A DNA stretch of 27,741 bases from positions 1-27,741 of IMG/VR virus record IMGVR_UViG_3300030099_002756. One strand, given 5' to 3'. The translations under genes were made by a program, and so were the position numbers. The stretch's first letter is position 1. Each line of letters opens with the position of its first letter. Positions 9,658 to 27,520 of the stretch are shown here, one piece after another. The notes beneath the pieces are model-generated. The model ran no database searches, was not told the DNA's origin, and worked only from the letters and a program-made list of their open reading frames with translations. The stretch comes from a virus.

Positions 9658-9668
9658 ACGGTTATAAA
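9658..9668 (-). promoter_or_regulatory. Extended TATA promoter of the nuclease-primase operon
   Basis: Minus-strand TTTATAACCGT, first T 30 nt upstream of the ATG at 9638, five bases after the polB stop codon. With a normal archaeal TATA-to-start distance of about 25 bases, transcription would begin at or next to the start codon. Confidence 0.75.
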
Positions 9669-9673
9669 CAATT

Positions 9674-18612: not shown

Positions 18613-18622
18613 GGTATTATAA
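18613..18622 (-). promoter_or_regulatory. TATA promoter of the winged-helix/zinc gene
   Basis: Minus-strand TTATAATACC containing the stop codon (TAA, 18619-18617) of the small membrane-protein gene. First T is 29 nt upstream of ATG 18593. Confidence 0.65.
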
Positions 18623-18838
18623 GTCGTTCCCAACGTCTGCCCATAAAATAGCATCTGCGAAAGAATTCTCCTCGTACTCACGGGCTGTGTCGCAATTAGT
18701 ATGTTTTATAGGTTTTTCTATAGCTACCCACTCAAAACTATGTGGAGATAGTATTATGATAAATAATTGCATAAACGGGAACAACAAACCCAAAGAAAGA
18801 AAAAATACTAGAAAGAAACAAACTTCGATTAGAGCCAT
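18617..18838 (-). CDS. Small membrane protein (73 aa)
   Basis: Residues about 6-31 form a strongly hydrophobic stretch (CFFLVFFLSLGLLFPFM and on), enough for one long or two short membrane spans; the rest is acidic and soluble. The ATG overlaps the end of the upstream gene by ten bases, so it is the last gene of the helicase operon. Possible roles include holin-like or membrane anchor, but nothing in the sequence decides this. Confidence 0.6.
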   Translation of the reverse strand: MALIEVCFFLVFFLSLGLLFPFMQLFIIILSPHSFEWVAIEKPIKHTNCDTAREYEENSFADAILWADVGNDL

Positions 18839-19745: not shown

Positions 19746-20359
19746 TCCACGACCTCGTAATCTACATCAATAGGTGTGGTTAGTAGGTTCAGTTTTCTCT
19801 CCACATCATCTAGTAGTTTGGGTTGGTCTGCTAAGGTTTCCACAAGAATCCTACTGACATCACTGAGCTGATTGTTTACTAGCAGTAGTTGAGAATCTAC
19901 GCCTATCTCTTTCTTGAGCTGACCCACTAGCTTCAGCGATGCGTTAGCCTGTGCTATCAATCTAGAGGCATCAGTCACAAACTCCGATGTGATACCACCC
20001 TCTGCCTCTTTACGTGCCTCTAACTCATCAAGATAGTTTCTAATCCTAATCACAATGTCTTCAGCGGAGTCTAAGGTGTTGATAGATTGTGAACGTGCTT
20101 GCTCCATGTGCATAGCCTCGGTAGGGTCATACTCCATGTGTGAGTCCATGTGGTTCATCACTGTGCCATCGGGCCAGTTATATTTAGCTTCAAGATAACT
20201 AGGTGTTGCTTCTTCATTGAACACCTGCTTCTCTAACTCCTTTCTGTCTTTGTGGTCACACATCTCACAACCACCCGACAGAACCCACCTTAGCACTTCT
20301 ATGGCAAAGGCATCGTTCTCGGTAGCCAATCTTCTCTGTATCTCTATCTTTGACCTCAT
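19742..20359 (-). CDS. DNA-binding protein with Cys/His-HTH motif, small-terminase-like
   Basis: 205 aa. Residues 31-75 follow a phage HTH pattern: CEMCDHKDRKELEKQV, then a helix-turn-helix ending in MNHMDSH. The C-terminal half is helical (ASRLIAQANASLKLVGQLK), as in small terminase or packaging-linked proteins. The start is ATG 20359, which shares one base with the helicase stop (TGATG); an in-frame GTG at 20374 is less likely. The large terminase is not in this window. A replication-initiation role is an alternative, because the neighbour is the helicase. Confidence 0.65.
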   Translation of the reverse strand: MRSKIEIQRRLATENDAFAIEVLRWVLSGGCEMCDHKDRKELEKQVFNEEATPSYLEAKYNWPDGTVMNHMDSHMEYDPTEAMHMEQARSQSINTLDSAEDIVIRIRNYLDELEARKEAEGGITSEFVTDASRLIAQANASLKLVGQLKKEIGVDSQLLLVNNQLSDVSRILVETLADQPKLLDDVERKLNLLTTPIDVDYEVVE

Positions 20360-21681
20360 CAGTTTGACCCCCACACTATCGGCTCACTCTCTTCTGACAC
20401 TGGCCCGAACCTACAGATAACACCCTTTCGACCACGCCTTTTTACGCTTGGTTCTACCTCACTGTACCAAGTCTGGCCTTCTAGGTTTTCTATAAGCCAT
20501 CGCTTTGCGCTCTGGTAGTCGCCCGCTGTTATCATACGACTAATCTCTTTTAGTAGTTGCGACTTGGGTACGTCCTTCATCCAGAAGGCGGAGCGTATCA
20601 GCTCTAGGTCAGCATCCATCACACGCCTTCGCATAGACAGTGATTGATTTAGTATTGCCTCTAAAGTATCATCTAGTTTTATGATTAAAGGTTCTCCACC
20701 ACGATAGGTAGGTTGCATCATAGCATAACCTATGCACATTCTTCTGAATAGGTCGGCCTCAAAGGAGCGCACGTCTGGTCTGTCTATCCAACGCATGATG
20801 TCGTCATCAAAGAGAATACCGGTTGGAGGATTCCTTACTGCTTCGTGCATCCTGTTTCTTATCCATTCTTTTATCTCAATATTAAGATTGGCTACAGCTA
20901 ATCTCTCATCTTTCTGCATGTTAGCCTGTGCGTGTTGGGCTAGTTTGTACTGCCTCTCTTTTTCTGGGGTCATCTCTATGTCTATGATGAAGAACCTTCG
21001 GTCTAGTCCAGAGTCAAGCTCAAACCTAGCGGGCTGTGTCCCGGCCCATACCGTGTATCGTGTGGTATATCTTACCCACCCGTTACGCATAGCCTTCTGC
21101 ACCCTACCGTTGTCTAGGCTTGTGAGCAGTTGGTTCTTCATGTCTAAGCTGTGGTCTTTCTTGGATGCGTCAGACATGGATGAGAATTCCTCAAAGCCGA
21201 GGAAGCCACCACACATCTCACGGGCGATAGGTCGCCCTGCTATCTCGCCCTCATCATCTACAGACCCGAACATACCGGCCTCTGTGATAGAGTTTGCACC
21301 CATCATGGTTCTCATACCCTGCCCCAAGTCAGCGTTAGAATTGTACACAAGTCCTGTGCCTTCAGCTAGAAACATTAGGATGAGTACGGACTTACCGCTA
21401 CCTTTGGCTCCTCGCATCAAGATGTGTATGCGTGTGTCTGGTAGCTGTGACATGGGTGTGTAGAACGGGATGTTGTTGTGCCTCAGTGGGCAGTTTTCTA
21501 TGATGAAGTCATTCTCCTCATCCACCAACGGGCTGTCGGGGTCGAAGTCACATCGGCTACACTTGTTTAGTGCGTTGAATATGTGGCCCCCGATACTACA
21601 TAGGAAGATAGGTATTTTATCCTCGACATCAACGAAGTAGTTACGCTGTGCAAACTCAATAGTTTTATCGAAGATATTCAT
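20359..21681 (-). CDS. MCM-like AAA+ replicative helicase
   Basis: 440 aa, shorter than cellular MCM (about 650-700). N-terminal cysteines (C28, C41, C44, C64) may form a zinc site. The AAA+ core has Walker A GAKGSGKS (91-98), a Walker B region GGFLGFEEFSSM (158-169) in the position of MCM's CCIDEFDKM, then a helix plus hairpin (NQLLTSLDNGRVQKAMRNG) as in the PS1 hairpin clade, sensor I WAGTQP (212-217) and the arginine finger GLDRRF (225-230). Asp of the canonical DE is Glu. A C-terminal helical region (about 370-420) fits a winged helix. ATG 21681 has GGAGGT about eight bases before. It is the presumed replication helicase. Confidence 0.75.
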   Translation of the reverse strand: MNIFDKTIEFAQRNYFVDVEDKIPIFLCSIGGHIFNALNKCSRCDFDPDSPLVDEENDFIIENCPLRHNNIPFYTPMSQLPDTRIHILMRGAKGSGKSVLILMFLAEGTGLVYNSNADLGQGMRTMMGANSITEAGMFGSVDDEGEIAGRPIAREMCGGFLGFEEFSSMSDASKKDHSLDMKNQLLTSLDNGRVQKAMRNGWVRYTTRYTVWAGTQPARFELDSGLDRRFFIIDIEMTPEKERQYKLAQHAQANMQKDERLAVANLNIEIKEWIRNRMHEAVRNPPTGILFDDDIMRWIDRPDVRSFEADLFRRMCIGYAMMQPTYRGGEPLIIKLDDTLEAILNQSLSMRRRVMDADLELIRSAFWMKDVPKSQLLKEISRMITAGDYQSAKRWLIENLEGQTWYSEVEPSVKRRGRKGVICRFGPVSEESEPIVWGSN

Positions 21682-22463
21682 TGTTGATTACCTCCCATGT
21701 GTTCCGCATGTCTTAGTGCTTCCATCATTTCCCTGTAATAAACAGTGTCATACTCAAGACCATGAATGTCATACATGAAATCCAAGAGTCTGTCTGCTTC
21801 TGATATGTTTAGGTAAGTGGTGTTGTCGTTACCACATAGGACTAACCAAACTCCTCGGATTGGGTTGGTACAGAAAGAGTTGAACAGGCTACACATAATC
21901 CAAGTAGGCGACGGCACTATCAATTGTAAGTCATCTATCACCTCACCGTTTGTTAGCTGTAGCACCTCCTCCTCTGGCTCTCGATAGTCATACACAATCA
22001 ATTCGTTTGGTGGTATCTGTGGTTGGTCATCGAAGATAAAATTCTGCATGACGTGCGATGTCAGATACACCAACTCATCCACACCCCTTTTACTACACTC
22101 CATTATGACATCCCTCATAACCGGGTAGTTATAGAGCCAAGACTTTGTTTGCTCTGGTGATGGTGTGTAGGCGTGAGATATTCTTAGGATAAAGTAACGT
22201 CGCCCATCTAAGTTTCTCATCTCATACATTCTCCACTCTGGGAATGTAGGCATCGGTAGGCTGTTCATTGGCTCTACTTGATGTAGCTTTGAGAATATCC
22301 TACAGATGGGTTGTCTTTCACCTACAAGACTAGCACCCGCCACGAAGGAGGCATACCCGGCCTCACCTTGATAATAAACTACTAAGGTGGTAGGCTCCTT
22401 AGTCATAACTTGTTCCGACCATACAAGGTCAGTGTCACCCGTTGAAGTTATTTTACTACTCAT
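21678..22463 (-). CDS. PAC2-like (proteasome assembly chaperone family) protein
   Basis: 261 aa. The order of elements follows the PAC2 fold: an N-terminal strand and turn TTLVVYYQGEAGYASFVAG (25-43), a PICRIF strand (52-57), the helix-strand IMECSKRGVDELVYLT (120-135), then a helix ending in RGVWLVLCGND (203-213) and an SEADRLLDFMYDIHGL helix (221-236). The cellular family assists proteasome ring assembly in archaea and eukaryotes. Presence in a virus is unusual; the target could be the host proteasome or an unrelated ring. Identification rests on pattern only. The gene overlaps both neighbours in the helicase operon. Confidence 0.5.
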   Translation of the reverse strand: MSSKITSTGDTDLVWSEQVMTKEPTTLVVYYQGEAGYASFVAGASLVGERQPICRIFSKLHQVEPMNSLPMPTFPEWRMYEMRNLDGRRYFILRISHAYTPSPEQTKSWLYNYPVMRDVIMECSKRGVDELVYLTSHVMQNFIFDDQPQIPPNELIVYDYREPEEEVLQLTNGEVIDDLQLIVPSPTWIMCSLFNSFCTNPIRGVWLVLCGNDNTTYLNISEADRLLDFMYDIHGLEYDTVYYREMMEALRHAEHMGGNQQ

Positions 22464-22791
22464 CTAATCTCTCCTTTATTTTTTCTTGTAGGAACATGGG
22501 AAACTTCTTGATTGGTTTTCTTGAGGCTATGGCTCTGCTTACTGCTACATCTAGTGGACGTGCATCCCACACACCTAACTTACCACGCTCACCAATCTTC
22601 TCAAACAAGACCGACGCTCTTAGTATGCAACCAAGAGATACTGGTGTAGTCCCGTAGTTGTAGCCGAAGCGGTCTGAGTAGCACTCAGAGTTGTACCAAT
22701 CGCATAGCTCTATAGATGTCATTGGCCCCTGCTCCTGTAGATACTTGTACACTTTTGATTGTAGTCTTTTAGTCTGCCCTCTGCCACCCAT
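22456..22791 (-). CDS. Winged-helix-type DNA-binding protein (111 aa), first gene of the helicase operon
   Basis: Basic start (GGRGQTKRLQSKVYKYLQEQ), then the turn GPMTSIELCDWY and a recognition-helix-like segment (TTPVSLGCILRASVLFEKIG), ending in a wing (GKLGVWDARPL). Fits a winged helix. ATG at 22791 lies 28 nt downstream of TTATAACCGT, which itself follows the 14-base upstream element, so this gene and its operon belong to the same promoter class as the small-gene operons. Autoregulation is possible. Confidence 0.7.
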   Translation of the reverse strand: MGGRGQTKRLQSKVYKYLQEQGPMTSIELCDWYNSECYSDRFGYNYGTTPVSLGCILRASVLFEKIGERGKLGVWDARPLDVAVSRAIASRKPIKKFPMFLQEKIKERLDE

Positions 22792-23009
22792 ACCCTGTCC
22801 TCTCCTGTCACGGTTATAATTATTTTTGTCATGTGTCGCAAGCGTAAAAAATTAAAACGCTTTACTGCTCTGCATATTTTTATTTCTTTTATTTCTTCAA
22901 AGGTGTTTTAGATTTCTTTTCTTCTTTATCTTAACACACTATTGAATTAATTGAAGAATAATTAGATAGGCTTTCAGTGTAACGTTTTTTTATTTTTGTG
23001 ATGTTGGAA
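22792..23009 (-). other. AT-rich intergenic region, the largest gap in the window
   Basis: Holds the promoter of the helicase operon at its left end. The rest (22846-23009) is very AT-rich, with T runs on the plus strand (for example GTTTTTTTATTTTTG at 22984-22998) and AATTAATT. No gene could be read in it. A termination zone for the upstream operon or a replication origin are both possible. Confidence 0.5.
22810..22845 (-). promoter_or_regulatory. Promoter with 14-base upstream element (helicase operon)
   Basis: Upstream element at 22832-22845 (plus-strand TGTGTCGCAAGCGT, exact consensus), then TTATAACCGT at 22810-22819. Distances: element to TATA 26 bases, TATA to ATG 28 bases, element to ATG 54 bases. 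Confidence 0.8.
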
Positions 23010-23873
23010 TCAAGAAAAAGAATTGATGACCGTTTGGTAGGCCCAATGATAATATTCTTTCTGTAACTTAGTTTTATCGTGAAAGTCATTGAGCCTGTCT
23101 GCATTCATCATCTTCCTTTCGATACTCTCCGGTAACTTACCGAGTATATCTTGGCTAAACTTATCTAAACTAGAATCAATTACTTCTAGGACATCACCTA
23201 GCTCTACTGCATCTATAGTGTGAACCCACCCTACTACTCTGTGATATTTCTCTACAAGCATAGTAGCACCGGTAGGCGTTTCTACCGTACCCCAAATGTA
23301 GGTGTTGTTATTGACAGATAATATATTTATGCTAAACTTATAGAGTCTTGTGCGTCGTACCCCACTATCATAGTAACGTGTAAGGAAATTATCTTTTGTA
23401 AAGCGCATGTATGGATACACTCTACCTTTGTAACTTATTCTAGGCAACCCATCTTTTTCGTAACCTTCTAGGTAATTAGCGTCTATGAAATCATATGTTG
23501 TTTGAAGATACTTACTACCGGTAGCTGATGAAACGACATGGGTTATCAATCCCTTGTCATGCCATATGTCTATCTTCATCTTCGGTTGGCTATCTATGTA
23601 ACCCTGTAAGATTTCGCTTAGTGGTGGTCTGTGGCTTGGTGGTACTTCATAGATAGTCTGCATCATTTCTGTGTATTGTAGTGTTGGGTCTATACACTTC
23701 AAGAAATTGAAAAGGATATATCGGTCTGTTATCTTGTACTGTTCAGTGTGTTCATATGTGTAGGATAGTAATATCATGGGTTGTTTTCTACCATTATATT
23801 TAACCTTATTATACTCTCTAGCCTCTACGGCCTTCAAGCCCTTAAGACTTAGTGACTTGTATCTACTGGTCAT
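23010..23873 (-). CDS. Protein of unknown function (287 aa)
   Basis: The largest unknown of the small-gene module. Mixed alpha/beta with many aromatic residues (for example RYILFNFLKCIDP, YPYMRFTKDNFLTRYYDSG) and a helical C-terminus; no Cys clusters, P-loop or membrane span. ATG 23873 overlaps the upstream gene by eleven bases, so it is third in an operon with a winged-helix protein and an 84-aa protein. No family recognised. Confidence 0.8.
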   Translation of the reverse strand: MTSRYKSLSLKGLKAVEAREYNKVKYNGRKQPMILLSYTYEHTEQYKITDRYILFNFLKCIDPTLQYTEMMQTIYEVPPSHRPPLSEILQGYIDSQPKMKIDIWHDKGLITHVVSSATGSKYLQTTYDFIDANYLEGYEKDGLPRISYKGRVYPYMRFTKDNFLTRYYDSGVRRTRLYKFSINILSVNNNTYIWGTVETPTGATMLVEKYHRVVGWVHTIDAVELGDVLEVIDSSLDKFSQDILGKLPESIERKMMNADRLNDFHDKTKLQKEYYHWAYQTVINSFS

Positions 23874-24117
23874 TCTCTTCCCTATCCCTTTGGTTCATAG
23901 CTTTGACTCTATTGGCTCTAGTCATAGTGTTCTTGAATTCTTTTACCATGTACTGAGGGGTCTTCTGCTTGAAGGAGCCTATGCTCATCCACTTAGTACA
24001 ATCCTCTACCAACTGTCTAAGCTCATTGACTCTCTTATTCTTAGTGTAGGGGAATACCTCTTTGGCTTTCTCTGTCTCTTTACTTTTATCGTCAAGATAA
24101 TCTTTGTACTTTCTCAT
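23863..24117 (-). CDS. Highly charged helical protein (84 aa)
   Basis: Lys/Glu-rich, helical, with a basic central region (KNKRVNELRQLVEDCTKWM) and a charged C-terminus (NQRDREENDQ). Starts with an ATGA overlap to the upstream winged-helix gene. Unknown function; a nucleic-acid or protein-binding adaptor would fit the composition only. Confidence 0.7.
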   Translation of the reverse strand: MRKYKDYLDDKSKETEKAKEVFPYTKNKRVNELRQLVEDCTKWMSIGSFKQKTPQYMVKEFKNTMTRANRVKAMNQRDREENDQ

Positions 24118-24380
24118 ACCTCTGCCCCTTCCTCATCGTAGTAGTATCTGTTTACCTTGTAGCTCATCGAAGTCCTGTTGTTGAATCCGTCCATGACCCT
24201 ATCCTGTACGTCGCCCTTTCTCACTTCTTTCATACCCCTAATGAGATTGCCGATATGTCTAGCGTTGCTGATGAATTTTTTTCTCTTCATCTTATTGAAT
24301 ATCTGTTCCGCTGTAAGACCGTCTGGGTTGGCCTTGAGTGTCCTTAGTATCTCGCTTCTGATTGCCTTCTTTCTCATAGA
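24114..24380 (-). CDS. Winged-helix protein (88 aa)
   Basis: MRKKAIRSEILRTLKANPDG is followed by LTAEQIFNKMKRK and NARHIGNLIRGMKEVRKGD, the three-helix pattern of a winged helix, then a wing and an acidic tail. I start it at ATG 24380 rather than 24440, because the TATA box (TTATA at 24401-24405) lies between them and 24380 is 26 nt from it. The gene leads an operon with the 84-aa and 287-aa proteins and is controlled by a promoter with the 14-base upstream element. Confidence 0.75.
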   Translation of the reverse strand, partial: SMRKKAIRSEILRTLKANPDGLTAEQIFNKMKRKKFISNARHIGNLIRGMKEVRKGDVQDRVMDGFNNRTSMSYKVNRYYYDEEGAEV

Positions 24381-24400
24381 ATCCCTACCCTTTTTGTATG

Positions 24401-24431
24401 TATAAGTATTTCTATTCTGACTCGCAAGCGT
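24401..24431 (-). promoter_or_regulatory. Promoter with 14-base upstream element (winged-helix operon)
   Basis: Upstream element at 24418-24431 (plus-strand TGACTCGCAAGCGT, two mismatches to consensus), overlapping the 3' end of the MazG-like gene. TATA (ACTTATAC) starts 25 bases further. ATG 24380 is 51 bases from the element. Confidence 0.7.
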
Positions 24432-24672
24432 TAATCGCATCTATAATATCTTGGTCTACAAGTACACCCTCAGATAAAGACACGTCGTTTATCAACCGCT
24501 GTAGATAAACACTCGCGTCCAGAAGCTCCTCTTGGAGATGGACTAACCACTCCATGATGTTAAGGTCGTCCCTCTCCATAGTAACGCCGTACTTGGCCTT
24601 ACCTACATTCGCTCTATGTCTTATCTTCCATATTACTTTTTCCTCAATACTACTCAATTTTACCACGTCCAT
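24412..24672 (-). CDS. MazG-like nucleotide pyrophosphohydrolase-type protein
   Basis: About 86 aa. The segment KAKYGVTMERDDLNIMEWL, followed by a QEELLDASVYLQRL helix (Glu48, Glu49, Asp52), matches small phage MazG-like proteins that carry the EExxD metal-binding helix. Such enzymes hydrolyse non-canonical or regulatory nucleotides. Only one EExxD helix is seen, so activity is uncertain. ATG 24672 overlaps the upstream gene by 23 bases; a TTG start at 24687 or a later TTG are alternatives. Confidence 0.65.
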   Translation of the reverse strand: MDVVKLSSIEEKVIWKIRHRANVGKAKYGVTMERDDLNIMEWLVHLQEELLDASVYLQRLINDVSLSEGVLVDQDIIDAINACESE

Positions 24673-24970
24673 TGTTGTAATCTGCAAAGTGTCTATCGTA
24701 ATCCCTCTGGGTACAAGTGAAAAGGTACGGGCTAGTTGGACTCTCCCTATACTTCTTGAACATCTTGTTCCTAGATAACTTAGCTAAGAATGAGTGGTAG
24801 TGTATAGTGCCTCTTTTATTACGGTAAAGGTTTCCGTTTTTGTAAGTCATGTTCTCAAAGATATTACTAGCTGTACATGGTTTACCTTGCTCTATCAACC
24901 AACGACCGGCGCACTCAAACGCCCTAGCGAACCTAGTCTTTCTAGCGTTGATACCGTTAAGCTCTTTCAT
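24650..24970 (-). CDS. Probable winged-helix/HTH protein (106 aa)
   Basis: Helical N-terminus (RKTRFARAFECAGRWLIEQG), then KPCTASNIFENM and a helix HYHSFLAKLSRNKMFKKY with a following strand (YLFTCTQRDY). The pattern is like the other winged-helix genes of the window, with an insert between helices. ATG 24970 has GGTGG five bases upstream and overlaps the stop of the 24-aa microgene (ATGA). Confidence 0.65.
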   Translation of the reverse strand: MKELNGINARKTRFARAFECAGRWLIEQGKPCTASNIFENMTYKNGNLYRNKRGTIHYHSFLAKLSRNKMFKKYRESPTSPYLFTCTQRDYDRHFADYNNGRGKIE

Positions 24971-25041
24971 CTGTTCCACCTATCTCTCCAACAACCACAC
25001 TGTCTATCGTTGTAATGCCCACACAACAAACACTTCTCCAT
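24967..25041 (-). CDS. Cysteine-rich microprotein (24 aa)
   Basis: Very short frame supported by coupling on both sides: ATG overlaps the previous stop (TAATG) and its TGA overlaps the next ATG (ATGA). Cysteines CLLC (4-7) and CGC (15-17), with a His between, could bind one metal. Too short for family assignment. Confidence 0.45.
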   Translation of the reverse strand: MEKCLLCGHYNDRQCGCWRDRWNR

Positions 25042-25196
25042 TAGTGTCTCACATCCACGTCGGGAACCCAGTCGCCGTTCTGGTACTCGTTGTAGCAACA
25101 ATCACAGACGACATCACCCCAGTCGTTGAAGAAGTAGATGGTAGTGCCTTCCCCATCTTCGATAGGATTATGACAATCCTCTAGGTCACAAATCAC
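25041..25196 (-). CDS. Cysteine-rich acidic protein (51 aa), zinc-ribbon type
   Basis: GTG start with an exceptionally strong GGAGGAGGAGGAAGA before it. Cysteines at 3 and 8 (CDLEDC) and at 31, 33 and 34 (CDCC), a CxxxxC/CxC spacing about 23 residues apart. GTG overlaps the preceding TGA (GTGA) and its stop shares a base with the next ATG. Function unknown. Confidence 0.65.
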   Translation of the reverse strand: MICDLEDCHNPIEDGEGTTIYFFNDWGDVVCDCCYNEYQNGDWVPDVDVRH

Positions 25197-25267
25197 TCTT
25201 CCTCCTCCTCCTTTCTTTTAGGGTAATACTTAGCACCTTGATTGTAGTATATCGTCGGTGTCTTCAT
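25193..25267 (-). CDS. Microprotein (24 aa) with polyglutamate end
   Basis: Bracketed by ATGA (with the 72-aa gene) and GTGA (with the next). Basic and aromatic first half, then five Glu in a row at the C-terminus. The GAG/GAA codons of that tail are also the Shine-Dalgarno repeat of the next gene, so the frame may exist mainly to couple translation. Confidence 0.4.
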   Translation of the reverse strand: MKTPTIYYNQGAKYYPKRKEEEEE

Positions 25268-25482
25268 TGTATCTCATTCCCATTCATATCCATTAGTGAC
25301 ACCTTCGGGGCTTTGAACCATGTAAGCTCTAAGTTACGCCCCTCGTCTTCGGTGTTCTCAACTACTAGAGTGAACCACCATAATTTATCGTTGTGCTTGT
25401 AAAAGCCCGTAGGGTACTTCGTTGAAAGATATGTGAATTCTAATTCCGGTGTAGCGTAATTCATTGTTATTTTTACATCCAT
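25264..25482 (-). CDS. Small beta-rich protein of unknown function (72 aa)
   Basis: Alternating strands with many aromatics (LEFTYLSTKYPTGFY, KLWWFTLVVEN, LELTWFKAP), suggesting a compact beta fold. First gene of an operon: ATG 25482 is 28 nt downstream of GTTAAAAG and 53 bases from the 14-base upstream element. Also has AGGAGG upstream, so both leaderless and Shine-Dalgarno starts are possible. Confidence 0.7.
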   Translation of the reverse strand: MDVKITMNYATPELEFTYLSTKYPTGFYKHNDKLWWFTLVVENTEDEGRNLELTWFKAPKVSLMDMNGNEIQ

Positions 25483-25503
25483 GTCTATGCCTCCTAGTCT
25501 TTT

Positions 25504-25535
25504 CTTTTAACTCTTGTCCTGTGTGTCACAAGCGT
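25504..25535 (-). promoter_or_regulatory. Promoter with 14-base upstream element (72-aa gene operon)
   Basis: Upstream element at 25522-25535 (plus-strand TGTGTCACAAGCGT, one mismatch), inside the end of the 60-aa gene. TATA-like TTAAAAG starts 25 bases further and includes that gene's stop codon (TAA, 25509-25507). Confidence 0.7.
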
Positions 25536-25689
25536 ACATGTTATTCTCTTTGAGCAATCTGTAATCAGCCTCACTCAATCTCTTGTCCACCTGCGTCTTT
25601 CTCCAACGACCTAGTACGCCGTTGTTCACTCCTCTAATAGTTTTACCTTTGTTGTATCTTTTTCTCATTCTACTTCCTGTACTTGCCAT
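25507..25689 (-). CDS. Basic small protein (60 aa)
   Basis: Strongly basic (RMRKRYNKGKTIRG ... GRWRKTQVDKR), a probable nucleic-acid-binding or ribosome-associated peptide by composition only. It starts four bases after the stop of the 49-aa gene. Its last codons contain the upstream element of the next promoter, which constrains them. Confidence 0.6.
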   Translation of the reverse strand: MASTGSRMRKRYNKGKTIRGVNNGVLGRWRKTQVDKRLSEADYRLLKENNMYACDTQDKS

Positions 25690-25693
25690 TGTA

Positions 25694-25843
25694 TCACTCC
25701 ACGATATATTCTATTTGTCTTAGCACATACTGAAGTGCCTCAACCCAACCCTCTGTGTCGGGTTCCCAATAATACTCTAAGTCAGCCTTCTTAACTTTCA
25801 ACATCCCTTCTATCTCTTCTACTAATGCTCCTATCTTATTCAT
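25694..25843 (-). CDS. Acidic helical microprotein (49 aa)
   Basis: ATG overlaps the stop of the 169-aa gene (ATGA) and the frame ends four bases before the next ATG. Two amphipathic helices (IGALVEEIEGMLKVKKADLE and VEALQYVLRQIEYIVE) joined by a Trp/Pro turn. No family recognised. Confidence 0.65.
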   Translation of the reverse strand: MNKIGALVEEIEGMLKVKKADLEYYWEPDTEGWVEALQYVLRQIEYIVE

Positions 25844-26349
25844 TGTATCAACTCCATCGGCCACCAATCGGGGGCATCTCTACCCTTCTTCCATTGGGCG
25901 AATCTACTTTTATCGTGAATGTAGTAGTCACGATATGCGGTGACGGCATCTACATTTTTGTACTCATCGGGCATGGCCTGTGCAAATGGCGTTAGCTCTC
26001 CCTCTGGTATCAAGAATGCCATAGTGTACAGATACTCTATGCCCTTCTCGCATGAGTGTACTTTGCCGAACCTCTTGGTGTACTCGTCGCACAGCATAGC
26101 ACCGTGGTAGCAAGCCCACAGGTAGTTTGAACGTGAATCTCCCACCCAACGGACGCAAGGGTGAAAATGATAACCTCCCTTGAGGGGCGTACCTTTGCTT
26201 GTTAGTGGCATCATGTCGGGTGTAGCACCGTGACGGATGACGGCGGAGCCTAGTTGTTGGTAAAGCTCCACGACCATCTTAGGAACGTGCTTGTCACAGT
26301 ACATCTTTGCTGACTGTATCGGGTCTTCGTCTAGTATGAATATGTTCAC
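25840..26349 (-). CDS. Conserved virus/phage protein with DxDPxxxA...CDKHVxKM motif (169 aa)
   Basis: N-terminal MNIFILDEDPIQSAKMYC followed by DKHVPKMVVELYQ is a pattern I recognise from uncharacterised proteins of cyanophages and large viruses, often with HPC...W...S.NYLW and ALCDEYT..FGKVH segments. All are here (HPCVRWVGDSRSNYLW and LCDEYTKRFGKVHSCEKG). The conserved His, Cys and charged residues suggest an enzyme, but I do not know its activity. The GTG start overlaps the previous stop (GTGA) and has GGAGGAG five bases upstream. Confidence 0.75.
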   Translation of the reverse strand: MNIFILDEDPIQSAKMYCDKHVPKMVVELYQQLGSAVIRHGATPDMMPLTSKGTPLKGGYHFHPCVRWVGDSRSNYLWACYHGAMLCDEYTKRFGKVHSCEKGIEYLYTMAFLIPEGELTPFAQAMPDEYKNVDAVTAYRDYYIHDKSRFAQWKKGRDAPDWWPMELIQ

Positions 26350-26579
26350 TGTATCTCCTCCATATAATCCCGTAGGTATAATCCTCGTCTTACAGGCTTC
26401 TCTAGCACCGGGTCTTTATCAACTTTGGGTTCCGGTGTCGCAAGCGTGGGTTGGTAGTTTGCGAAGCACGTCGGACACTCTGGTAGCTTTGCGTACTCGG
26501 CATCGGTGACGTACTCACCGGACTCTGGTACAGGCGTACCGCATATCCTATCATATCCTCTTGAGATATGCTTCATCAT
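26346..26579 (-). CDS. Small Cys-containing protein (77 aa)
   Basis: Cys13 and a CPTC pair (35-38) may bind metal; the second half is proline- and charge-rich (TPEPKVDKDPVLEKPVRRG). Start ATG 26579 overlaps the stop of the 20-aa frame (ATGA); a GTG at 26591 is possible. The promoter element for the next gene lies within this coding region. Confidence 0.6.
   Translation of the reverse strand: MMKHISRGYDRICGTPVPESGEYVTDAEYAKLPECPTCFANYQPTLATPEPKVDKDPVLEKPVRRGLYLRDYMEEIQ
26414..26447 (-). promoter_or_regulatory. Internal promoter with 14-base upstream element (169-aa gene)
   Basis: Upstream element at 26434-26447 (plus-strand GGTGTCGCAAGCGT, one mismatch), then TTGATAAAG starting 25 bases further. 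No start codon lies at the usual leaderless distance, so transcripts would carry a leader of about 45 bases before the GTG at 26349, which has GGAGGAG. Confidence 0.55.
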
Positions 26580-26638
26580 TCTAAGTCCCACTCCTCAAAG
26601 ACCCACTCGTCTGTTTCAACTCTTACCACTAGCTTCAT
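26576..26638 (-). CDS. Possible microprotein (20 aa)
   Basis: Short frame with an ATGA overlap at each end (26635-26638 and 26576-26579). Acidic with three Trp. Support is only the coupling pattern; it may serve as a linker frame for ribosomes moving between neighbours. Confidence 0.35.
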   Translation of the reverse strand: MKLVVRVETDEWVFEEWDLE

Positions 26639-26805
26639 GCTTCTTCCTCCCATTGAGGCCACCCATAATCGGACAGGTCAATGGCCCCATGCTCTTGAGC
26701 GAGGGCCACGACTTCCTCCAACCATTCGTTGCGCTTACGCAACCGCTTGATTTCCTTTATGGCAGAGAAAGCCAAATCCAATGCCCTCTTTACTTCATCA
26801 CTCAT
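26635..26805 (-). CDS. Helical small protein (56 aa), coiled-coil-like
   Basis: A long amphipathic helix (ALDLAFSAIKEIKRLRKRNE and WLEEVVALAQEHG), then an acidic tail. ATGA overlaps with the genes on both sides. A coiled-coil or HTH-like adaptor would fit, but no family is recognised. A small inverted repeat (GTTGCG/CGCAAC) lies inside the coding region. Confidence 0.6.
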   Translation of the reverse strand: MSDEVKRALDLAFSAIKEIKRLRKRNEWLEEVVALAQEHGAIDLSDYGWPQWEEEA

Positions 26806-27047
26806 TCAATCACCTTCTCCCTGTAGTCCGGGTGTTCCTCTGGTAGTAAGTGCCTTCTTCGCTCCATCATATTGACAAGCAGTTTCATCAGTTTCTTAGC
26901 TCCCTTGTCGAATCTCTCCTCTGCCTTTTCTTTTCTTGGGGCTACTACCATAGTTTCTTTTACGATAGATATATCTATGTCATCAAGGATATGCTGTAGT
27001 ATCTCGTACTCAACATGGGCATGATTTTTACACCTAATGACAACCAC
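26802..27047 (-). CDS. Basic helical protein of unknown function (about 81 aa)
   Basis: Core is ILQHILDDIDISIVKETMVV, followed by a basic helix (KAEERFDKGAKKLMKLLVNM). The start is uncertain: GTG 27047 limits overlap with the upstream gene to 14 bases, whereas ATG 27125 would overlap by 92. Ends with an ATGA overlap to the 56-aa gene. Confidence 0.5.
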   Translation of the reverse strand: MVVIRCKNHAHVEYEILQHILDDIDISIVKETMVVAPRKEKAEERFDKGAKKLMKLLVNMMERRRHLLPEEHPDYREKVIE

Positions 27048-27468
27048 ACTCCCCTGTCTTGTGCGTGTCGTGTGGCATACCGTGGTTGCACACATCATAG
27101 ACCCCGGCTTCTTTCCTGTCTTCATAGGCTTTCTCTGTCACCCACCATAGCCTTGTTTGTCTTCTCCTCTGTGGCTCGACAATGAATTCTTGCTCTAGGC
27201 TCTCAACGTAGTCTGCAAACTCCTCCTCTGTGATTGTTGATGTAGTCCAATCATACCTGTTCTTTTTGCCATTCCATGACGGTAATTCTGGCCCGTCTAC
27301 GGATGAACCCGCCTCAATCAACCACTCATACAGATTCATGTGTCTACCATGACCTATCATGTTTCTGTCATCTATGTAACTGATGAACCACTCTAGGAAG
27401 TCGGCTTCCCTCTCAGCATTCGTTCTTACCCTCATGGGCTTCTTCTCCTGTGTCGCTTTTTGCTCCAT
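27034..27468 (-). CDS. Unknown protein with Cys/His-rich C-terminus (144 aa)
   Basis: Charged N-terminus, an Arg/Glu helix (NAEREADFLEWFISYIDD), an acidic middle (TITEEEFADYVESLEQEF) and a C-terminal CNHGMPHDTHKTGECGCH that could bind metal. ATG 27468 is chosen because it is 27 nt downstream of TTAAAGG and 52 bases from the 14-base upstream element. No family recognised. Confidence 0.65.
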   Translation of the reverse strand: MEQKATQEKKPMRVRTNAEREADFLEWFISYIDDRNMIGHGRHMNLYEWLIEAGSSVDGPELPSWNGKKNRYDWTTSTITEEEFADYVESLEQEFIVEPQRRRQTRLWWVTEKAYEDRKEAGVYDVCNHGMPHDTHKTGECGCH

Positions 27469-27489
27469 GATACTCCATCGAAGCCGTAC

Positions 27490-27520
27490 CTTTAACTGTT
27501 CCGTTCTGTGTCGCAAGCGT
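27490..27520 (-). promoter_or_regulatory. Promoter with 14-base upstream element (144-aa gene operon)
   Basis: Upstream element at 27507-27520 (plus-strand TGTGTCGCAAGCGT, exact consensus), then GTTAAAGG with its first T at 27495, 25 bases further, and ATG 27468 after another 27. Confidence 0.75.

Follow-up and report, generated by a model that had tools for sequence, protein, structure and literature searches.

A 14-base upstream element with fixed geometry marks a candidate promoter class of small genes in tailed, probably archaeal, marine viruses

The virus record IMGVR_UViG_3300030099_002756 of IMG/VR, analysed over its whole length of 27,741 bases (the window), carries five copies of a 14-base sequence in front of small genes, each followed by a TATA-like box. 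The recurrence of such a short sequence raises the question of whether it is a genuine regulatory site and, if so, to which type of promoter it belongs and which protein reads it. The original prediction, made from the window's letters, was that the 14-mer is a shared cis-element defining one temporal promoter class and that its reader may be a winged-helix protein encoded by the virus. The explanation favoured here, with moderate confidence, is that the 14-mer acts as an upstream regulatory site for promoters of a class peculiar to these viruses, which serves the small-gene block, and that it is bound by a virus-encoded winged-helix protein with an activating effect. Genes preceded by the element are called tagged below.

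Read on the strand of the genes, the element is ACGCTTGCGANRCA and ends about 12 bases 5' of the TATA-like box. All five copies lie on one strand and the genes served are on the minus strand, as are the five copies, their boxes and the coding sequences given hereafter with their window positions. The first copy (ACGCTTGCGACACA, 22832-22845, exact) spans positions -54 to -41 of the ATG of a gene coding a 111-residue winged-helix protein and is followed by the box TTATAA (22814-22819, within TTATAACCGT); orthologous promoters retain it. The second (ACGCTTGCGAGTCA, 24418-24431, two mismatches; box TTATAC, 24400-24405) occupies the same -54 to -41 interval of the gene for an 87-residue winged-helix protein, whose orthologs have a spacing of 40-41 nucleotides (nt). 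The third (ACGCTTGTGACACA, 25522-25535, one mismatch) is found upstream of a 72-residue gene within the 3' end of a 60-residue gene, and its box TTAAAA (25505-25510) overlaps the stop codon of that upstream gene. The fourth (ACGCTTGCGACACC, 26434-26447, one mismatch; box TTGATA, 26417-26422) lies within the coding part of an 81-residue gene, while the fifth (ACGCTTGCGACACA, 27507-27520, exact; box TTAAAG, 27490-27495) precedes a 144-residue gene.

The positions and mismatch counts of the five copies agree with the original prediction, as do their common orientation, the fixed place of the TATA-like hexamers (11-12 nt after the 14-mer on the gene strand) and the placement of three copies within the 3' coding portions of genes upstream. 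The start codon had been placed at a nearly constant distance in four of the five cases, and an ATG is indeed found 38-40 nt past the 14-mer in four copies. The exception is the copy at 26434, which has its TATA-like box in place and the start codon (GTG, 26349) 84 nt downstream, a layout seen again in other contigs or loci (G008, G050, G053, L254). Four copies have the 10-base core TCGCAAGCGT without a mismatch, as claimed, and it does not occur in the rest of the window; none of the promoters of the replication genes at 7-18 kb has the element, also as claimed. The proposed reading of the core as a dyad CGC-AA-GCG is weak, for a single orientation is used and the conserved part extends asymmetrically (ACGCTTGCGANRCA). 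Taken alone, the window is suggestive: a relaxed search with up to three mismatches gave 5 matches against 1.4 expected, a modest excess over chance that 2 of 100 shuffled sequences reach.

The reality of the element is settled by related viruses, owing to the number of exact cores, their rigid spacing and the absence of exact reversed cores. A search for PolB relatives led to 36 viral loci, many of which carry the element in the same orientation. Seventeen element-bearing contigs were used for the counts, which consider exact cores with enough sequence downstream. They hold 87 such cores, of which 69 have an open ATG 38-43 nt past the 14-mer, the distance being exactly 40 or 41 nt in 62. About 5% of random positions in the same contigs have an open ATG at the right distance. 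When orientation is counted, 69 of 89 cores point towards a start at this distance and 2 do so in the opposite direction; the binomial tail for the 69 is ~1e-71 if the sites are taken as independent, which they are not fully. The reversed core has no exact site in the 17 contigs and permuted controls have almost none. The copies are therefore not scattered at random. A de novo positional 8-mer search before ATGs, blind to the finding, recovered ACGCTTGC among the top signals, at -54 in G003, G019, G037, G038, G043, G045, G050 and G053 and at -55 in G041 and G052. The consensus of non-redundant sites is ACGCTTGCGARRCA, an A-rich spacer, TTAWAA, GAGG(A/T)G, an A-rich stretch, a pyrimidine (Y) and ATG. 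A scan of all IMG/VR with this type of composite pattern added further contigs, nearly all multi-copy matches belonging to recognisable relatives, while scattered single matches look like chance.

Orthologous promoters give the same picture. Homologs of the 87- and 111-residue winged-helix proteins (wHTH-A and wHTH-B, respectively, for winged helix-turn-helix) have 31-88% protein identity and most of their promoters retain the element at a spacing of 39-42 nt. Related viruses thus carry it at the same spacing, as originally expected, even though identity between many of the proteins is no more than 31-50%. In cases of overlap with the upstream coding sequence, the carboxyl terminus of the latter is written by the element (e.g. 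DACESE or DACDTE followed by the stop codon); in other genomes the upstream gene ends before it. Conservation therefore acts on the nucleotides and not on the peptide. Together, placement and orthologous promoters strongly support the view that a shared cis-element defines one promoter class of the small-gene block.

The element belongs to one virus clade. In the PolB tree all bearers group in a single clade of 18 rows with support 100/100, and outside it the element is absent from contigs that cover the neighbouring 261-residue gene (G016, G018, G020, G021, G025, G029 and G030, G029 covering just ~2.5 kb of the block side). Two contigs found through wHTH-A, G058 and G059, have no copy within one mismatch. 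Compared with the bearer G052, G058 has 94% identity in the 440-residue protein and 85% in wHTH-B; the wHTH-B promoter of G058 and G059 is closely similar to that of G052 except for the 14 bp, which are replaced. This replacement inside an otherwise conserved promoter shows that the element is a separable module. No clear replacement tag emerged when the block loci of G058 and G059 were searched by position, and a positional k-mer search found no clear tag of their own in the distant relatives G020, G029 and G031; the distant relative G021 gave only the weak positional signal AAACTCACCAAA. The tag-less G058 (L263-L265) has, at ~43 kb and elsewhere, its own short dispersed repeats AACACTAGTGT, AGTATATATAC and AAATCCAAAA.

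Copies of the element are also associated with a 73-residue open reading frame (18617-18838 in the window) whose carboxyl-terminal peptide, SFADGILWADVGNDL with its variants, is conserved across relatives. In G003, G006, G010, G028 and G046 its coding sequence contains an exact or near copy; the copy is degenerate in the window (18686), and mostly there is no TATA box at the usual distance.

The sequence around the start codons points to the promoter type. Of 82 tagged genes, 76 (93%) have a pyrimidine immediately 5' of the ATG, versus 59 of 158 operon-internal genes (37%; p 4e-18), and genes with a TATA box and no tag have it in 34 of 37 cases (92%). The TATA centre is ~26 nt 5' of the start, with a pyrimidine-purine initiator signature at the A of the ATG. 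Because of this pyrimidine at -1 and the TATA box centred ~26 nt upstream, transcription would start at the A of the ATG, and there is good support for inferring that tagged genes have leaderless transcripts. With this start point the tag spans -54 to -41, directly 5' of the region of the B-recognition element (BRE) and TATA box. The TATA box is fixed in position and varied in strength, its best match to TTTATATA being mostly 4-6 of 8; the region 5' of it is A-rich and has no fixed BRE. A tag-free promoter class is found at replication genes, with GTTTATAACCGTAAT or GTTTATATCCGTAAT ~28 nt before the ATG and a pyrimidine at -1. Its sites in the window are at 9658-9669 and upstream of 13851 and 17807, and there are several in G003 and G006; the window promoter at 22814-22819 combines the box of this class with the tag.

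In the favoured explanation, the functional unit on the gene strand would be composed of ACGCTTGCGANRCA, ~12 nt, a TTAWAA box, ~22 nt and the ATG, with the element placed at -54 to -41, directly 5' of BRE/TATA, where archaeal upstream activating sites sit. A virus-encoded winged-helix protein, with wHTH-A as best candidate, would bind the site, whose fixed phase to the TATA box could let the bound protein help or block loading of the TATA-binding protein (TBP) and transcription factor B (TFB). The small-gene block would then be turned on or off together as a regulon that feeds back on its regulator, whose own promoter is tagged. An activator contacting TBP/TFB is favoured over a repressor because the site is 5' of the core promoter, its orientation and spacing are fixed and the TATA boxes are often imperfect. 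By analogy to early genes of Sulfolobales viruses (PMC11065993), the tagged genes are probably early.

The best candidate regulator, wHTH-A (24114-24377), has the element in its own promoter. It is a predicted winged helix (predicted local distance difference test, pLDDT, of 79 for the model) with a conserved helix around NARHISNLLRGMK in the alignment, and its top PDB match in Foldseek is 2od5, with probability 1.00 and an E-value of only 0.03. All its homologs end in GAE[IV] after acidic residues (EGAE[IV] tail), a possible contact peptide. The second candidate, wHTH-B (22456-22791), is likewise tagged and predicted to be a winged helix (pLDDT 86); its best PDB match is again 2od5 (E-value 6.5e-4) and it has a weak DUF3860 match of 22.5 bits, below the cut-off of 27. 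Sequence searches for PDB relatives of the winged-helix proteins gave chance matches only. The structure 2od5 is a putative nucleic acid binding protein from an uncultured marine organism, and its resemblance to both predicted folds suggests that this orphan may itself be a viral regulator. A 109-residue protein (24650-24979), winged-helix-like by inspection and with no family match, is a third possible regulator. A virus-encoded TFB as reader of the site was rejected, since PF00382 has no match in 20 contigs, all partial.

Two winged-helix proteins that structure prediction supports, each under a tagged promoter of its own, thus make the regulator originally proposed plausible, and a virus-encoded reader of this kind is likely, with moderate support. 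All bearer contigs covering the block have wHTH-A, truncated ones excepted, and five element-less relatives (G016, G018, G020, G025 and G030) do not have it. Several observations weigh against the favoured explanation. G058 and G059 encode wHTH-A homologs in the absence of the element, so that pairing of the two is not strict, and in these viruses the regulon may have been lost by decay. The joint profile of wHTH-A and element reflects essentially one tree split, and wHTH-B and the 84- and 113-residue proteins track the clade nearly as well. Owing to this exception and to the single split, wHTH-A is rated first candidate and not proven. About 20% of exact cores have no ATG at 38-43 nt, some of them being in coding sequence where the promoter is absent. 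A GAGG resembling a Shine-Dalgarno sequence precedes 67 of the 82 tagged ATGs, while a strictly leaderless mRNA would need none. Such sequences are about as frequent before operon-internal genes (115 of 158), and tagged genes are therefore probably also translated from transcripts that read through from upstream promoters. The archaeal host, finally, comes from gene content only.

The main rival, a possible explanation that we consider clearly less probable, is that the 14-mer is the operator of a virus-encoded repressor: the genes would fire at once from host TBP/TFB and be shut off later by the winged-helix protein. Such a shut-off of early genes was proposed for Aca8 of Sulfolobus islandicus rod-shaped virus 2 (SIRV2), whose early genes have the same architecture and share their cluster with the winged-helix Aca8 (PMC11065993). 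Autorepression would also fit the tagging of both winged-helix genes themselves. The site, however, lies 5' of BRE/TATA at fixed phase and orientation, and not over the TATA box or the start site. In archaea such a placement is more typical of activation.

It is unlikely that the site is read by a host transcription factor exploited by the virus. Early viral promoters often must work before viral proteins exist, and a precedent exists in Sulfolobus Sta1, an activator of SIRV promoters. When the species genomes of 84,980 bacteria and archaea were scanned with the composite motif, however, no archaeal and no multi-copy match was obtained; the 23 scattered matches are all single and bacterial. 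A host element was rejected on the lack of an archaeal match. Confinement to one clade also speaks against a host factor, since near relatives, presumably with similar hosts, are devoid of the element.

The same 23 cellular matches, being all bacterial, could be taken in favour of a bacterial-type promoter, in which TTGCGA would be the -35 and TTAAAT the -10 box with a 16-nt spacer, followed by a Shine-Dalgarno sequence and ATG. This sigma-70-like layout (TTGCGA-16-TTAAAT, GAGG 8-12 nt before the ATG) is compatible with the sites, and we nevertheless regard it as very improbable. The pyrimidine at -1, found in 93% of tagged genes and 92% of the tag-free TATA class versus 37% of internal genes, is an initiator-like signature, and conservation covers ACGC and NRCA, beyond any -35 box. 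The replication genes are moreover of archaeal type: an RFC small subunit, a Hef-like ERCC4 nuclease and a PolB which, judged by coverage and identity, has its best named matches in tailed viruses of haloarchaea (24% identity). A mainly non-transcriptional role, as recombination or cassette-boundary sequence or as RNA signal, is hardly credible either: the small genes are highly variable between relatives and the other contigs tested lack homologs of the 144- and 56-residue genes, but coupling to TATA box and ATG is rigid, the module is swapped inside an otherwise intact promoter in G058/G059, and the five window copies share no fold (z -2.1 to +1.6), which led to rejection of an RNA structure or terminator.

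The gene content also bears on the identity of these viruses. Members of the Magrovirales, viruses of Marine Group II/Poseidoniales (PMC10768690, PMC12999244, PMC10160649), have PolB, RFC small subunit, ERCC4 nuclease, GroEL and a PD-(D/E)XK nuclease, as found here. The replication set PolB, RFC-S, ERCC4 nuclease and GroEL described for this order (PMC10768690, PMC10160649) is present in the viruses studied, and one relative encodes portal, terminase and tail proteins. An archaeo-eukaryotic primase has been reported for Magrovirales and TFB for the Aoguangviridae exemplar; in contrast, the primase (PF01896) is absent from the contigs searched, all partial, and TFB was not found either. The viruses are therefore called Magrovirales-like only. 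They are probably tailed marine viruses with an archaeal host, judging by these genes; no contig scanned has a tRNA that could link them to one. The papers searched or read describe no such promoter element, and the magrovirus papers that the search returned do not speak of promoters.

The block contains further genes. Those for 84- and 287-residue proteins that follow wHTH-A (23010-24117), probably co-transcribed with it, were confined, within the set of contigs searched, to the clade that bears the element. The genes for the 261-residue protein and for the 440-residue P-loop protein, 3' of wHTH-B (20359-22463), belong to the presumed operon of copy 1 and are conserved also in element-less relatives. 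The tag had been said to link the small genes to a helicase operon. By position this stands, since the copy at 22832 precedes the 111-residue gene that heads the operon; the 440-residue protein has a P-loop (GAKGSGKS) and no helicase family match. Block proteins gave almost no matches in PHROGs and NCBIfam. The exception is a 169-residue protein (25840-26349), present in most relatives, with a strong match to phrog_624 ('DNA binding protein', E-value 8e-55); in G003, G038 and G050 its gene has its own ATG tagged at 40-41 nt.

A second family of dispersed sites has a CTACAAA core, often within near-perfect palindromes, and reaches ~40-100 copies per contig where enriched. Its forms are TGCTACAAATTTGTAGCA (G016/G018/G030), ACTACAAATTA/TAATTTGTAGT (G050/G053), AACTACATAAC (G048) and AACTACAAATCA (G046), and sites are located in L100 (G018, 47-53 kb), G030 (65-72 kb), G016 (0-4 kb), G053 (33-39.4 kb), G046 (21-28 kb), G048 and G050. 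One copy is directly before several TATA boxes of G018 (TGCTACAAAAAAACCTTATAA..ATG), and in G046 and G053 the sites fill the small-gene block adjoining the ACGCTTGCGA block. We tentatively put forward that at least two parallel lineage-specific regulons might cover adjacent small-gene blocks, one with the ACGCTTGCGANRCA tag, a virus-encoded DUF3860-like winged-helix activator and fixed geometry, a second with dozens of palindromic CTACAAA-type sites whose flanks are lineage-specific, the tag being lost or replaced as a module as in G058/G059.

The transcription programmes of uncultured marine archaeal viruses are little known and their small genes mostly unannotated. A tag of fixed geometry defines a regulon from sequence alone, names regulators that can be tested and lists dozens of candidate genes for host takeover or anti-defence. 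The same logic in Sulfolobales viruses (PMC11065993) led to a new inhibitor of CRISPR-Cas and to one that acts on a toxin-antitoxin immune system. The promoters of G052, with the 14 bp, and of G058/G059, without them, provide a natural test pair.

In archaea, upstream activating sites such as those of GvpE and Ptr2 are found directly 5' of BRE/TATA, in fixed phase to the core promoter. The element described here shares this position and phase; it differs in being virus-borne and repeated across a whole gene block, with a candidate activator. The closest known kind is the set of regulatory sequences shared by early and anti-defence genes of Sulfolobales viruses, SIRV2 among them (Bhoobalan-Chitty et al. 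2024, PMC11065993). There too, one virus-specific sequence with a TATA box precedes many small, mostly uncharacterised genes, and a small winged-helix protein, here a predicted fold, is encoded in the cluster under the same promoter. In the Sulfolobales viruses (rudi-, lipothrix- and bicaudaviruses) the near-identical part is the BRE/TATA core with its flanks, whereas in the tailed marine viruses what stays constant is a discrete site of 10-14 bp at -54 to -41 and the TATA box varies. The start-associated sequences (SAS) and extended SAS (ESAS) of Cluster K mycobacteriophages (PMC3203893) are also short asymmetric repeats; they lie close to the start of numerous small genes, for the most part in a single orientation, and are kept among related phages. 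About half of them have an additional inverted repeat, and their consensus, GGGATAGGAGCCC, is near the translation start in a phage of bacteria, while the 14-mer has another sequence and lies 40 nt before the ATG, 5' of an archaeal-type TATA box. It is not a member of the SAS family and the likeness is an analogy only. What appears to be new, in tailed marine viruses that probably infect archaea, is a discrete tag placed upstream in a rigid geometry.

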